DNA from: Kushneria avicenniae
GTDB lineage: Bacteria > Pseudomonadota > Gammaproteobacteria > Pseudomonadales > Halomonadaceae
Assembly: GCF_900112585.1 (NCBI RefSeq)
Contig: NZ_FOLY01000003.1
Span: 1 to 64,000 of the forward strand
Length of the DNA: 64,000 nt
Direction of reading: 5' to 3'
The first letter of the stretch is position 1, and each line of letters opens with the position of its first letter. Both the position numbers and the translations under genes were made by a program. The notes beneath the pieces are model-generated. The model was not told the DNA's origin and did not search any database. It was given only the letters and a program-made list of their open reading frames with translations. Positions 33,397 through 43,656 of this stretch are shown piece by piece.

Positions 33397-34857
33397 TCAG
33401 GAGCGTGAGGACACCGGCTTGCTGTCAGCGCCGCGACGCCACAGCCCGGACTGCCAGCCGTGCGCCAGCGCCGCCACACCACCGCCAAAGAAGACGGCAA
33501 AGCTGCTGATATCGCCCAGTGGCGCCAGACTGACCGGCACGCTTACCAGACCTCCGATGATGAGTGAACGCACCGCCACAGGATTGACGCCGCGCTGATA
33601 GTGATAGGTGCTGCCCTCCTCGGAGGAAAACAGCGCGTCGAGATCGATCTTCTGGCGGCGCACCTTGTAAAAGTCCATCAGGATGATGCCGTAAAGCGGC
33701 CCGATCAGACCGGCCAGCACCCCCACCGTGTAGTGGATCAGCTCGGGATTGTTGAACAGATTCCACGGCGTGAGAAAGATCGAGCCAACAGCCGCGATCA
33801 TGCCGCCCATGCGCCAGCTGATTTTTTCGGGGGCAACATGAGAAAAGTCGAACGCCGGCGCCACGAAATTGGCCACGATATTGATACCGATGGTGGCGGC
33901 CACGAAGGCAAAGACGCCCAGCACGGCGGCCGTGACGCTATCGATGCGCGCGACCGTCTCGATCGGATCAGTCAGCATCTCACCAAAGACCTGCGGCGTT
34001 CCGGAAACCACCACCACCGTGATGATGGAAAACACCAGGAAGTTGACCGGCAGCCCCCAGAAATTGCCGCGGCGAACCGACTTCTCGGTAGCGCAGTAAC
34101 GTGAGAAATCACCAAAGTTGAGCGTGGGCCCGGCGAAGTAACCGGCCACCAGCACGGCAGCGACCACCATTTCCCATAGCGCCTCGCCCCCGGTCAGCGT
34201 CTCGCTCGACAGCGACAGACTGATGTTGCTCGGACCTGCGCGCCAGACAATCCAGCCGGCAAGCGCAAACATGACGGCATATACCAGCGGGCCGGCCCAG
34301 TCGTTGAAACGGCGAATGGTGTCCATGCCGCGCCAGAAGACCAGCGCCTGGAGCACCCACATCAGTGCAAAGCAGAACCAGCCCAGCCCGGACAGACCGG
34401 CAAAGCTTGCATTGGTCCATGACTCGAGCCCCGGGAACCAGCGCAACAGCACCAGCAGCAGGGCGTTGGAGGCCAGCCAGGTCTGGATGCCATACCATAC
34501 AACGGCAATGAGTCCGCGAATGACAGCCGGCACGTTGGCGCCTTTCGTGCCGAAAGACATGCGACAGATCACTGGAAAGGGGACGCCCGTACGCTGGCTG
34601 GGCCGTGCGACTGCATTGGCAAAACACTGCACGACAAGAATGCCGACCAGCAGTGAAATCAGGACCTGCCAGCCCATCAGCCCAAGGCCAAACAGACTGG
34701 CGGCCAGCACGTAGCCCCCGACGCTGTGAATATCGGCCATCCAGAAAGCGAAAATATTATAGGCATTCCAGTCCTGCCGGGCCGGTGCCAGATCCTCGTT
34801 GTACAGGTGCGGATCGGGCGCGGCGGGCTGTTGCCCCTGTGTCCTGGTGCTGTTCAT
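33397..34857 (-). CDS. NCS1-family permease, probable allantoin/hydantoin/purine carrier
   Basis: 486-residue, 12-helix nucleobase:cation symporter. NCS1 marks are NEDLAPARQDWNAYNIFAFWMADIHSVGGY, GTKGANVPAVIRGLIAVVWYGIQTWLAS, GPTLNFGDFSRY and the late GPLYGIILMDFYKVRRQKIDLDALF. ATG 34857 is chosen since GGAGTCGCTC precedes it; ATGs upstream to 34947 lack such sites. Its neighbours (racemase, allantoinase, allantoate amidohydrolase) point to allantoin or a hydantoin as cargo. It is transcribed divergently from gntR, from a sigma-54-like promoter, with NtrC-type sites between, so nitrogen limitation should induce it. Confidence 0.87.
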   Translation of the reverse strand: MNSTRTQGQQPAAPDPHLYNEDLAPARQDWNAYNIFAFWMADIHSVGGYVLAASLFGLGLMGWQVLISLLVGILVVQCFANAVARPSQRTGVPFPVICRMSFGTKGANVPAVIRGLIAVVWYGIQTWLASNALLLVLLRWFPGLESWTNASFAGLSGLGWFCFALMWVLQALVFWRGMDTIRRFNDWAGPLVYAVMFALAGWIVWRAGPSNISLSLSSETLTGGEALWEMVVAAVLVAGYFAGPTLNFGDFSRYCATEKSVRRGNFWGLPVNFLVFSIITVVVVSGTPQVFGEMLTDPIETVARIDSVTAAVLGVFAFVAATIGINIVANFVAPAFDFSHVAPEKISWRMGGMIAAVGSIFLTPWNLFNNPELIHYTVGVLAGLIGPLYGIILMDFYKVRRQKIDLDALFSSEEGSTYHYQRGVNPVAVRSLIIGGLVSVPVSLAPLGDISSFAVFFGGGVAALAHGWQSGLWRRGADSKPVSSRS

Positions 34858-34937
34858 GAGCGACTCCATGAAGGATCGTTGCGCTGCCGCTGGCAGCCCT
34901 GCGATAGTCGGATGGCCGACATCGTCTGTCACCTTAT

Positions 34938-34947
34938 TCGTATACAA
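34938..34947. promoter_or_regulatory. GTATAC-centred operator half of a pair (GntR site)
   Basis: TCGTATACAA, differing in one position per arm from the perfect TTGTATACAA at 35250-35259. It overlaps the -12 side of the minus-strand sigma-54-like promoter of the NCS1 gene. Confidence 0.6.
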
Positions 34948-34958
34948 TCTCCGTGCCA
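34943..34958 (-). promoter_or_regulatory. Sigma-54-like -24/-12 element for the NCS1 gene
   Basis: Read on the minus strand: TGGCAC-GGAGA-TTGTA against the consensus TGGCAC-N5-TTGCA. The -24 half is perfect and spacing is correct; the -12 GC is GT here, so it may be weak. It lies 86 bases before the ATG. Confidence 0.5.
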
Positions 34959-35101
34959 GATTGATGCCAGCATCAACAAAAATTTGTTATCTGGCCACAA
35001 AACCTTGTTGTGGCGCGAGTTTTTGGCTAGCACATCAGAGCCGAAGTGAATTCGGAATACCGCATAAAACGACGACCAGGGTCTAAAAACCGCCCTGCCG
35101 A

Positions 35102-35118
35102 TGCACCATAAAAGTGCC
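35102..35118. promoter_or_regulatory. NtrC-type enhancer site 1
   Basis: TGCACCATAAAAGTGCC fits GCAC-N7-GTGC, the NtrC dyad (compare the E. coli glnA sites). Centre-to-centre distance to site 2 is 31 bp, three helical turns. Confidence 0.68.
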
Positions 35119-35132
35119 AAACCGTTTCGCGG

Positions 35133-35149
35133 CGCACCAAAAAAGTGCT
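35133..35149. promoter_or_regulatory. NtrC-type enhancer site 2
   Basis: CGCACCAAAAAAGTGCT again fits GCAC-N7-GTGC. With site 1 it forms the paired arrangement normal for NtrC oligomer binding, about 100 bp upstream of the plus-strand sigma-54 element. Confidence 0.68.
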
Positions 35150-35174
35150 CTTCGGGCTCGGATAGTGCATCCAT

Positions 35175-35191
35175 TGCACCATTTTGATAGC
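35175..35191. promoter_or_regulatory. Degenerate third NtrC-type site
   Basis: TGCACCATTTTGATAGC keeps the left half-site and spacer; the right half is decayed. It lies 42 bp, four helical turns, from site 2. Confidence 0.4.
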
Positions 35192-35234
35192 GTTTTTTAT
35201 TCATTCTCTGACCTCGACAAGCGTTTAAATGCAG

Positions 35235-35250
35235 TGGCATGGAAAATGCT
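35235..35250 (+). promoter_or_regulatory. Sigma-54-like -24/-12 promoter for gntR-racemase-allantoinase
   Basis: TGGCAT-GGAAA-ATGCT against TGGCAC-N5-TTGCT. The invariant GG and GC are present with the canonical ten bases between them. The predicted start point near 35261 lies about 43 bases before the gntR ATG, right after the operator. Confidence 0.6.
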
Positions 35251-35259
35251 TGTATACAA
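35250..35259. promoter_or_regulatory. Perfect palindromic GntR-type operator
   Basis: TTGTATACAA is a perfect palindrome adjoining the -12 element of the plus-strand promoter. The next gene encodes a FadR-class GntR protein, a group that binds short palindromes of this kind. Repression or anti-activation of RNA polymerase is expected. Confidence 0.65.
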
Positions 35260-35303
35260 TCCTCAAGGCAGCCATTCGACAGGAACAGCGTGACAGGAGC
35301 CTC

Positions 35304-36026
35304 ATGAACGATACTCGTCAGTTCCATCTGCTGGCCGGGCTCGCGACCGGGCGCGACGCCCGCAGCGATGACGCCATCTATCAGTCGTTGTGGGAAGCCA
35401 TCGTGGAGCATCGTCTTTCTCCTGGCGCCCGTCTGCCGGAAGACGCACTGGCTGGTGCCTTCGGGGTGAGTCGCACCATGATTCGCCGCGTGCTTCAGCG
35501 CCTGGCGCTGGAGCAGCTGGTGACGCTTCGCACTCATCGCGGTGCCCAGATCACCAGTCCCACTCCCAGCGAGGCACGCGATGTTTTCAGAGCACGCCGA
35601 CTGCTTGAAGGAGCATTGCTGACCGAGGTTGTCGGCAACATCAAACCTGCGGATCTACAGGCCCTGGCGCAGATTGCCGACCAGGAGCATCACGCATCAC
35701 GTGAACAGGCGATCCGTCTGTCGGCCCGCTTCCACACGCGACTGATGGCAATGGCCGGCAATGCGTCTCTGTCGGAGGCGCTGTCCCAGCTGATCTCGCG
35801 CACCTCGCTGATCATTGCCGTCTACGGTCGCGGCCAGGCCGGCTGCCCCTGTGAGCATCACACGCTGATCAAGCTGCTGGAGACCCATGATCTCGCCGCT
35901 CTTCAGAAATGGATGCATGAACACCTGACAGGCATCGAGGCGAGCCTTGATTTCACCGCCAGCGGTGATGCTCTGCCCGATTTCGAACACCTTTTTGGCC
36001 ACCATCGCGAGCAAAACGCGTCATGA
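35304..36026 (+). CDS. GntR-family (FadR/FCD subfamily) regulator of ureide use
   Basis: 240 residues from ATG 35304 (MNDTRQFHLLAG), which has CAGGAGCCTC upstream; the frame is open from 35229 but covers the operator. Winged helix at about 22-85 (AIYQSLWEAIVEHRLSPGARLPEDALAGAFGVSRTMIRRVLQRL), then a helical FCD ligand domain (FRARRLLEGALLTEV, RLSARFHTRLMAMAGN, CEHHTLIKLLETHD with metal-type His residues). First gene of the operon with the racemase and PuuE, joined by ATGA overlaps. It probably binds TTGTATACAA at its own promoter and the related site at the NCS1 promoter, with a ureide as ligand. Confidence 0.87.
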   Translation: MNDTRQFHLLAGLATGRDARSDDAIYQSLWEAIVEHRLSPGARLPEDALAGAFGVSRTMIRRVLQRLALEQLVTLRTHRGAQITSPTPSEARDVFRARRLLEGALLTEVVGNIKPADLQALAQIADQEHHASREQAIRLSARFHTRLMAMAGNASLSEALSQLISRTSLIIAVYGRGQAGCPCEHHTLIKLLETHDLAALQKWMHEHLTGIEASLDFTASGDALPDFEHLFGHHREQNAS

Positions 36027-36778
36027 CGTCTCATACCCCCACCATTTGTGTCATCAACCCCAACACCAGCACCGCCATGAGCGAGGGCATCGCCACCAGC
36101 GCCCGTCGAGTGTCTCGCGGCGAGATTCTCATGCACACCTCGCGCCATGGCCCGGCCAGTCTCGAAGGTCACTTTGACGAAGCCATCGCTGTGCCCGGAC
36201 TGCTGGAGCGCATCATCGAAACCGAAAATGGCGACACTCGCGTCAACGGCTACTTGATCGCCTGTTTCGGCGACCCGGGGCTGGCCGCGGCCCGCGAAGT
36301 AGCCTCGGTGCCCGTGATGGGTGTGGCCGAAGCCGGCATGCAGATGGCAGCCATGGTGGCGCGGCGCTTTTCGGTAGTCACCACGCTGGGGCGCACGCTG
36401 CCGATCGCCGAACGGCTGCTGCACGAATACGGCAAGCGCGAGCAGTGCGCCGGCCTGCACGCCTGTGAGCTGCCGGTGGCCGCCTTTGAATCCGAGGATG
36501 ACAGTGTCTACGAGACTCTGCTCGCTGCCTGCCGTGAAGCGCTCAAAACCGATGGCAGCGACACTGTCCTGCTGGGGTGTGCCGGCATGAGCGAGCTGGC
36601 CGAGCGTCTGGGCCAGGCCCTCGGCGTACCGGTCATTGACGGCGTCACCGCCGGAGTCGCCCTGCTGGAGGCGGTCAGCGCCACCGGCTACCCGGTGTCG
36701 AAGCACAACGACCGTGCCGTCCCGATCGCCAAGCCCATTCGCGGCGCCTTTGAACACCTGAGCCGGAGCATGTCATGA
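36023..36778 (+). CDS. Allantoin/hydantoin racemase (Asp/Glu racemase superfamily)
   Basis: 251-residue cofactor-independent racemase. The two catalytic cysteines are C81 (IACFGDPG) and C186 (LLGCAGMSEL); ICVINPNTSTAMS is the usual N-terminus. HpxA-type members interconvert R- and S-allantoin, hydantoin racemases act on 5-substituted hydantoins. The adjoining allantoinase and allantoate amidohydrolase favour allantoin. Start overlaps the gntR stop and its own stop overlaps the puuE start (both ATGA), so the three proteins are translationally coupled. Confidence 0.88.
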   Translation: MTSHTPTICVINPNTSTAMSEGIATSARRVSRGEILMHTSRHGPASLEGHFDEAIAVPGLLERIIETENGDTRVNGYLIACFGDPGLAAAREVASVPVMGVAEAGMQMAAMVARRFSVVTTLGRTLPIAERLLHEYGKREQCAGLHACELPVAAFESEDDSVYETLLAACREALKTDGSDTVLLGCAGMSELAERLGQALGVPVIDGVTAGVALLEAVSATGYPVSKHNDRAVPIAKPIRGAFEHLSRSMS

Positions 36779-37716
36779 GTCATGATCTTTATCTGGACCA
36801 CTACCCACGCGACCTGCGCGGCTACGGCGCCAACCCGCCGGACCCGAAATGGCCGGGGCGTGCCCGGGTCGCGGTGCAGTTCGTGCTCAATTACGAGGAG
36901 GGTGGCGAGAATAACGTGCTGCATGGCGATGCCCACAGCGAGACGTTTCTCTCCGACATCATCGGCGCCGCCCCCTTCCCCGACCGCCACATGAGCCTGG
37001 AGTCGCTCTACGAGTACGGTTCACGTGCCGGGGTCTGGCGCATCCTGCGCGAGTTCGAACGCCGTAATCTGCCGCTGACCGTGTTCGGCGTGACCATGGC
37101 CATGGCACGCTATCCCGAAGTAGTCAGCGCCTTTCAGGAAGCCGGTCACGAGATTGCCTGCCACGCCCTGCGCTGGATTCACTATCAGGACATGAGCCCC
37201 GAGAAAGAGCGCACCATGATGGTGCAGGCACTTGAGCTGCATCGTGAACTGACCGGAGAGCTGCCACTGGGATGGTATACCGGGCGAGACAGCCCTAATA
37301 CCCGCACGCTGGTCGGCGAGCATGAGCACTTCCTCTACGACTCGGATTATTACGGCGATGACCTGCCCTTCTGGACACAGGTCAGCAACGCCGAAGGCAA
37401 GACACGTGATCATCTGGTAGTGCCCTACGCCCTGGACACCAACGACATGCGTTTTGCCTCACCGGGCGGCTTCAACTATGGCGACCCGTTCTTCAACTAC
37501 CTGAAGGACGCCTTTGATGTGCTCTACGAGGAAGGCGCCGAGTCGCCGAAAATGCTCTCGATCGGCCTGCACTGCCGCCTGATCGGCCGCCCCGGCCGAT
37601 TCCGCGCCCTGCAGCGGTTCCTTGACCACATCGAAGCCCATGAACATGTGTGGGTCACGCGGCGCGTGGACATCGCCCGCCACTGGCATGAGCATCACGC
37701 CCCGGTCGGGCGCTGA
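36775..37716 (+). CDS. puuE: Allantoinase, PuuE type (polysaccharide-deacetylase fold)
   Basis: 313-residue metal-independent type allantoinase opening the hydantoin ring of allantoin to allantoate. It matches PuuE: YPRDLRGYGANPPDPKWPG, VQFVLNYEEGGENNVLHGDAHSETFLS, GSRAGVWRILREFERR, GHEIACHALRWIHYQDM, YTGRDSPNTRTLV and YDSDYYGDDLPFW. No signal peptide, so it works in the cytoplasm. It uses the product of the racemase and feeds AllC, encoded on the opposite strand at 41.1 kb. No uricase or PuuD-type genes are next to it, so the route seems to begin at imported allantoin. Confidence 0.92.
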   Translation: MSHDLYLDHYPRDLRGYGANPPDPKWPGRARVAVQFVLNYEEGGENNVLHGDAHSETFLSDIIGAAPFPDRHMSLESLYEYGSRAGVWRILREFERRNLPLTVFGVTMAMARYPEVVSAFQEAGHEIACHALRWIHYQDMSPEKERTMMVQALELHRELTGELPLGWYTGRDSPNTRTLVGEHEHFLYDSDYYGDDLPFWTQVSNAEGKTRDHLVVPYALDTNDMRFASPGGFNYGDPFFNYLKDAFDVLYEEGAESPKMLSIGLHCRLIGRPGRFRALQRFLDHIEAHEHVWVTRRVDIARHWHEHHAPVGR

Positions 37717-39955: not shown

Positions 39956-40145
39956 GTGCTCTCCCTTGCCCGGCAGGCGCTGTTGGGGGTTTTCATGACC
40001 CCGTTGCAACCTTCATGCCAGAACAAGCGCGCCCCTACTCACTGGCGGCGCCGGGGCGCCCGGCGGTCATCGTTGAGCACCGGGCAGACCAGAGAAATGC
40101 ACACACTCGGTGCGCAGGAGATCCGGCGCGCTCTTTTGGAATGCA

Positions 40146-43566: not shown

Positions 43567-43585
43567 GGCAGGCAACCTCGTTACG

Positions 43586-43656
43586 ATCGTTTCATAACGA
43601 TGCTATAGGAAACCATGGTTGCAGCGCGACCCCCTGATGATTGATTTTTATCATCA
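43586..43656. promoter_or_regulatory. Inverted repeats in the pucG / TAXI divergent promoter region
   Basis: ATCGTT-TCAT-AACGAT (43586-43601) lies 20 bases before the pucG ATG. TGATGAT-N8-ATCATCA (43635-43656) lies further out and contains TTGAT-TTTT-ATCAT, one base off the FNR/Anr consensus. Either could be an RpiR or Anr site; no NtrC or sigma-54 match was found here. Confidence 0.4.

Follow-up and report, generated by a model that had tools for sequence, protein, structure and literature searches.

The intergenic control region between a divergent NCS1-family permease gene and a gntR-racemase-allantoinase operon in the salt-loving Kushneria avicenniae is, in our judgement, probably a two-input nitrogen switch for ureides, a purine waste, with an NtrC enhancer, sigma-54-type promoters and gating by a GntR regulator. 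As we picture it, phosphorylated NtrC would bind a pair of dyads when nitrogen is low, and these would form one shared enhancer from which NtrC, by looping, would activate sigma-54 polymerase at two divergent promoters. One of these, a variant whose -12 reads TTGT, serves the NCS1 permease, and the other serves gntR-racemase-puuE. The GntR protein, which is of the FCD type, would block sigma-54 polymerase from TTGTATACAA operators until released by an inducer, for which allantoin or one of its derivatives is the probable candidate. Output would then require both low nitrogen and a ureide, and GntR would be autoregulated. We infer the binding, the looping, the repression and the inducer. The elements themselves are real and conserved and most likely function in this manner, once a decayed third dyad in the original prediction is removed and a third operator, lost in this genome, is added.

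Layout and conservation of the control region

The window, meaning the whole stretch of DNA analysed, is the first 64 kb of one contig from a 3.6 Mb genome. The NCS1-family permease gene (33397-34857, minus strand) matches PF02133 at 286.5 bits and falls below the cut-offs of two allantoin permease models (261 versus 620 bits and 227 versus 800 bits). Its start is most likely the ATG at 34857, since the frame upstream carries stops in 8 of 9 readable relatives; a reading frame from a TTG at 34947 was rejected as too long on the same grounds. Facing the permease, gntR (35304-36026), a racemase gene (36023-36778) and puuE (36775-37716) all lie on the plus strand with 4-bp overlaps between neighbours. 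The regulator belongs to the FCD (FadR) subfamily of GntR proteins, with PF00392 at 59.1 bits (cut-off 27) and PF07729 at 58.7 bits (cut-off 24.3). HutC was considered as its identity and rejected, with TIGR02018 at 32.3 bits against a cut-off of 220 and an FCD domain present instead. The Asp/Glu/hydantoin racemase family protein (PF01177) we infer to be allantoin racemase-like, and the allantoinase PuuE matches TIGR03212 at 510 bits, over its cut-off. Beyond puuE are a carrier, an amidase, an RpiR-type regulator, an allantoate amidohydrolase and a class V aminotransferase. A GTTTC...GAAAC inverted repeat at 43577-43620, upstream of aminotransferase-allantoate amidohydrolase-rpiR, is kept in 5 of 5 aligned sequences and may be where the RpiR-type regulator binds.

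Every position originally given for the dyads, the -24/-12 elements and the operators was correct on rechecking. Two GCAC-N7-GTGC dyads lie 31 bp apart as claimed, NtrC-type site 1 (TGCACCATAAAAGTGCC) at 35102-35118 and NtrC-type site 2 (CGCACCAAAAAAGTGCT) at 35133-35149. Two -24/-12 elements face outward. The one before the NCS1 permease (TGGCACGGAGATTGTA, 34943-34958, minus strand) has one mismatch to TGGCAYGN4TTGCW, its -12 reading TTGTA and not TTGCA, and the one before gntR-racemase-puuE (TGGCATGGAAAATGCT, 35235-35250, plus strand) also has one mismatch. A GTATAC-centred palindrome, the predicted GntR operator, is found at each -12 just as proposed: operator 1 (TCGTATACAA on the plus strand, 34938-34947) overlaps the permease -12 box, and operator 3 (TTGTATACAA, 35250-35259) adjoins the gntR one, its first base being the last of the -12 box.

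Single motifs are weak evidence here, because their counts in the 64 kb window are near chance. GTATAC occurs 3 times versus 2.5 expected (at least 3 in 43 of 100 shuffles), GCAC-N7-GTGC 6 times versus 3.0 expected (matched by 7 of 100 shuffles), and the sigma-54 pattern with up to one mismatch 5 times versus 2.3 expected (matched by 2 of 100). Genome-wide, there are 109 GCAC-N7-GTGC dyads versus 88 in a reversed control, and 86 sigma-54 patterns with up to one mismatch, both promoters included, versus 30 in the control. Unlike the single motifs, the combination is not chance-like. A double dyad at 31 bp spacing with no mismatches occurs once in the 3.6 Mb genome, and with up to two mismatches at 4 places versus 1 in the control. 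Among the genome's TTGTATACNA matches, TTGTATACAA is the only full palindrome.

Comparison across relatives, which the original prediction had named as a check, came out in its favour. The divergent permease-gntR arrangement is present in 13 genomes (K. avicenniae and 12 relatives) and absent at the other 31 of 44 GntR matches, and every one of the 13 shows the control layout; because these genomes are related and fall into three genus-level groups, they do not amount to 13 independent trials. In all 13, operator 1 overlaps the -12 box of the minus-strand promoter, where GTATACAA is found and -12 is TTGTA, the permease -24/-12 has one mismatch, TGGCA at -24 keeps a fixed spacing to operator 1, and the plus-strand -24/-12 has no more than two mismatches. 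Dyad 1 is perfect in 12 of the 13, and dyad 2 keeps its left half, GCAC, better, the right half having decayed in most relatives. An alignment of 10 of the 13 genomes holds 8 conserved runs (at least 6 columns, at least 90% conserved). Five are named elements (GTATACAATC, GTGCCA, GCACCA, TGGCATG and ATGCTTGTATACAAT) and three lie in the permease leader at 34864-34903; column conservation is 46-50% in the spacers and 84% in the leader. The decayed third dyad that had been proposed at 35175-35191 did not survive this comparison: it is 47% conserved, as spacer is, and ranks 26th to 128th by the NtrC matrix described below, and we reject it as an NtrC site.

Outside this set, the permease (65%), racemase and PuuE are also syntenic in a genome from another family (L100), which carries two operators and three dyads of one mismatch each, with 32 bp between the first and the second; no sigma-54 match was found there at the threshold used. 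Within the set, L018 has a permease that is 75% identical but a GntR protein at only 49%, and yet retains a good part of the control layout.

The conserved permease leader (minus strand, 34864-34903) contains a GCTGCC-N3-GGCAGC hairpin at 34883-34897, a pattern found once in the window versus 0.02 expected, and the leader fold has a z of -2.4. The hairpin is present in 9 of the 13 genomes (L005-L013), with a varying loop and outside any conserved frame, and absent in L014-L016 and L018. The leader is perhaps a translational control element.

The predicted GntR operators and the proposed role of GntR

We searched for TGTATAC or GTATACA within 600 bp upstream at 68 GntR loci, that of K. avicenniae included. 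An operator was found upstream at 49 of the 68, whereas the controls gave 1 of 68 within the gene and 5 of 68 downstream. The frequency by GntR identity was 10/10 at 70% or more, 29/37 at 45-57%, and 10/21 below 45%, and operator-bearing loci include Rhodobacter-type ones at 41-43% identity. Some of the upstream operators are about 400-560 bp from gntR, and these distant ones may serve genes other than gntR. Loci that have the operator encode similar recognition helices, but so do several that do not; of the 37 loci at 45-57% identity, 8 have no operator despite a nearly identical helix. GTATAC and TTGTATACAA fit the palindrome consensus for FadR-subfamily operators, GTM-N0-1-KAC (PMC4494728). 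The association between operator and locus supports, short of proof, binding by the GntR protein encoded here. No ureide gene was seen at the five other TTGTATACNA places in the genome that might have pointed to a wider GntR regulon (ORFs judged by eye); one of these places precedes a GntR gene other than the present one (L055), and another is inside an ORF (L051).

A third, middle operator place lies beside NtrC site 2 at 35153-35163. GTATAC is present there in 10 of the 13 genomes, all of them among the 12 relatives, and is absent in K. avicenniae, where it has been lost, as well as in L008 and L012. Operator 3 is identical in L005-L014 (10 of 13) and absent in L015, L016 and L018. Operators turn over while operator 1 persists. 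The distance from operator 1 to operator 3 is 294-312 bp in L005-L014, with no constant phase. Distances from dyad 1 to the plus-strand promoter are 132-134, 124, 111 and 68 bp, steps of very roughly one turn, though the independent lineages are too few to make this a pattern.

We speculate that one 10-bp palindrome serves as both operator and permease -12 box, a possibility that we put forward tentatively. The change from C to T at -12 in 13 of 13 genomes would then come from the demand of the operator, and repressor and sigma-54 would compete for the same bases. Where the ancestral operator next to the NtrC site is present, the repressor would block the enhancer as well as the closed complex, and loss or gain of operators would tune which step is blocked.

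These operators bear on a different role for the regulator, in which GntR, like HpxS, would repress without ureide and activate with it, the nitrogen input forming a separate layer. The gene order gntR-racemase-allantoinase is that reported for hpxSAB, and Klebsiella HpxS reportedly combines both roles, together with NAC; however, operators on or just after the -12 boxes occupy a position suited to blocking, and a second activator is unneeded because an NtrC-type enhancer is present. We consider a dual regulator of this kind unlikely. Within the NtrC-GntR switch that we prefer, GntR might nevertheless also activate.

In L017 and L019-L034 the GntR homologue occurs in a different neighbourhood; by eye, several of these loci have a cytochrome c-like frame upstream. 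A single GTATACAAT without a sigma-54 match is often found there, which represents a different promoter type with the same operator.

NtrC-type sites and sigma-54-type promoters

A scan with an NtrC matrix was another check that had been proposed, and we built one from all TGGTGCA-like sites upstream of glnA in 15 genomes (32 sites, 27 distinct). The dyads ranked first and third in the window with this matrix and second and third when it was symmetrised, site 1 being the higher in each case. Twenty shuffled windows gave means of 0-0.05 and 0.15 matches at dyad-level scores. The remaining top match, at 37210-37226, is inside puuE, leaving the dyads as the best non-coding matches in the window. 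The NtrC-type sites of glnA themselves show the 31 bp spacing in 9 of the 15 genomes and in 7 of 10 within the genus, that of K. avicenniae included; elsewhere the spacing is 30 in L139 and 17 in L140, L141 and L144, and a single site was found upstream of glnA in L142 and L143. The genome encodes NtrC and RpoN, which exceed their cut-offs at 741 and 445 bits respectively, and its ntrB promoter carries TGCACCACGAGGGTGCA and a sigma-54 match. Of the 5 perfect sigma-54 matches in the genome, one is located some 115 bp ahead of the rpoN match (G000:C15:111914-111929).

The dyads could instead bind an enhancer protein or regulator other than NtrC. Five further proteins encoded here score 266-428 bits with the NtrC model, short of its cut-off, and the glnA matrix gives a poor fit to the dyads of L015, L016 and L018 (2.3, 5.3 and 8.0 for dyad 1). 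Against this stand the rank of the dyads among non-coding matches, the 31 bp spacing held in common with the genome's own glnA, and a left half that fits the published NtrC box TGCACCAnnnTGGTGCA (PMC8743547), and we regard another binding protein as very unlikely.

On the gntR side, the promoter has GG at -24 and GC at -12 with a spacing of 10 bp. The permease side has the -24 and the spacing, with GT in place of GC at -12 in 13 of 13 genomes, and because of this GT (TTGT) we call it sigma-54-like and not a strict member of the class. Of the outward-facing elements first described, the positions and orientation stand, the elements are conserved, and the permease -12 (TTGTA) is off consensus. 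Two one-mismatch matches to the IHF consensus are present on the minus strand, at 34977 and 35177. It is highly improbable that the promoters are of the sigma-70 type, GTATACAAT supplying the -10 region and the -24/-12 likeness being incidental: TATACA and TACAAT do look like a -10, a lone GTATACAAT without a sigma-54 match precedes gntR in many distant homologues, and the permease -12 is TTGT, but a strict-consensus search found no sigma-70 promoter and no -35 partner, TGGCA at -24 holds its spacing to operator 1 throughout, and the NtrC-type dyads are conserved.

Returning to NtrC activation with GntR gating, the anatomy behind the original prediction was upheld by conservation, by the independent NtrC matrix and by the genes for RpoN and NtrC. 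What fell away was the remnant third NtrC site and a consensus -12 for the permease. Two features had no place in that prediction: the middle operator, which could not have been seen in this genome, and a sigma-54 site before the amidase gene.

A third sigma-54 site (TGGCATGAAGGTTGCA, 40005-40020, minus strand) precedes the amidase gene. It has no mismatches, is one of 5 such sites in the genome and is kept in all 4 sequences that were aligned. Upstream of it a GCAC-N7-GTGC dyad at 40099-40113 is also kept in 4 of 4, and scores weakly with the glnA matrix, ranking 30-128; no GTATAC was found near this promoter in the window. With a sigma-54 site and a dyad and without an operator, the amidase promoter is a natural comparison promoter.

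Related systems and implications

The logic of the region is ordinary and resembles known systems, the closest precedents being Pseudomonas hutU and Klebsiella hpxSAB. The hutU promoter involves HutC, NtrC/CbrB and sigma-54: the GntR-family repressor covers the sigma-54 site in Pseudomonas aeruginosa (PMC12977541), and NtrC activates Pseudomonas hutU through two palindromic subsites far upstream (PMC8871633). The likeness lies in a GntR-family repressor at a sigma-54 site combined with distal NtrC sites. HutC, however, belongs to another GntR subfamily, and hutU concerns histidine where the present locus concerns ureides; here, moreover, the enhancer is common to two divergent promoters with an operator at each. 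In Klebsiella, hpxSAB reportedly has the order gntR-racemase-allantoinase, an allantoin-responsive GntR protein and a requirement for nitrogen limitation, and HpxS, reported to be both repressor and activator, reportedly acts with NAC at -35/-10. The likeness lies in this reported gene order, whereas NtrC-type and sigma-54-type sites and a divergent permease distinguish the region described here.

In Burkholderia cenocepacia H111, an ntrC mutant grows poorly on allantoin, with I35_1967 (GntR) down by log2 5.9, the urate oxidase I35_1963 by log2 3.4 and the deacetylase I35_1964 by log2 3.2 (PMC5491218). By locus number, I35_1967 is four loci from I35_1963. An NtrC-dependent GntR gene together with allantoin use makes this case similar, the likeness being one of growth and expression. 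The genome's own glnA shares NtrC-type sites 31 bp apart and a sigma-54 site (TGGCACGCTGCATGCA), but is driven in one direction and is without GTATAC upstream (0 of 15 glnA loci).

The wiring looks new, in that a single enhancer and an FCD-type GntR protein are combined with a divergent pair of sigma-54-type promoters, at one of which the operator is fused to the -12 box; we recognised no paper describing this arrangement in a literature search that covered few subscription papers. The region offers a compact, testable case in which one NtrC enhancer would serve two divergent sigma-54-type promoters, each gated by a FadR-type repressor. Related species supply natural variants, with two or three operators, with an operator on or off the -12 box, and with a nearby promoter that has no operator. 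Finally, the work proposes an operator for a group of GntR proteins often encoded beside allantoinase or racemase genes, which aids the annotation of purine-nitrogen metabolism.
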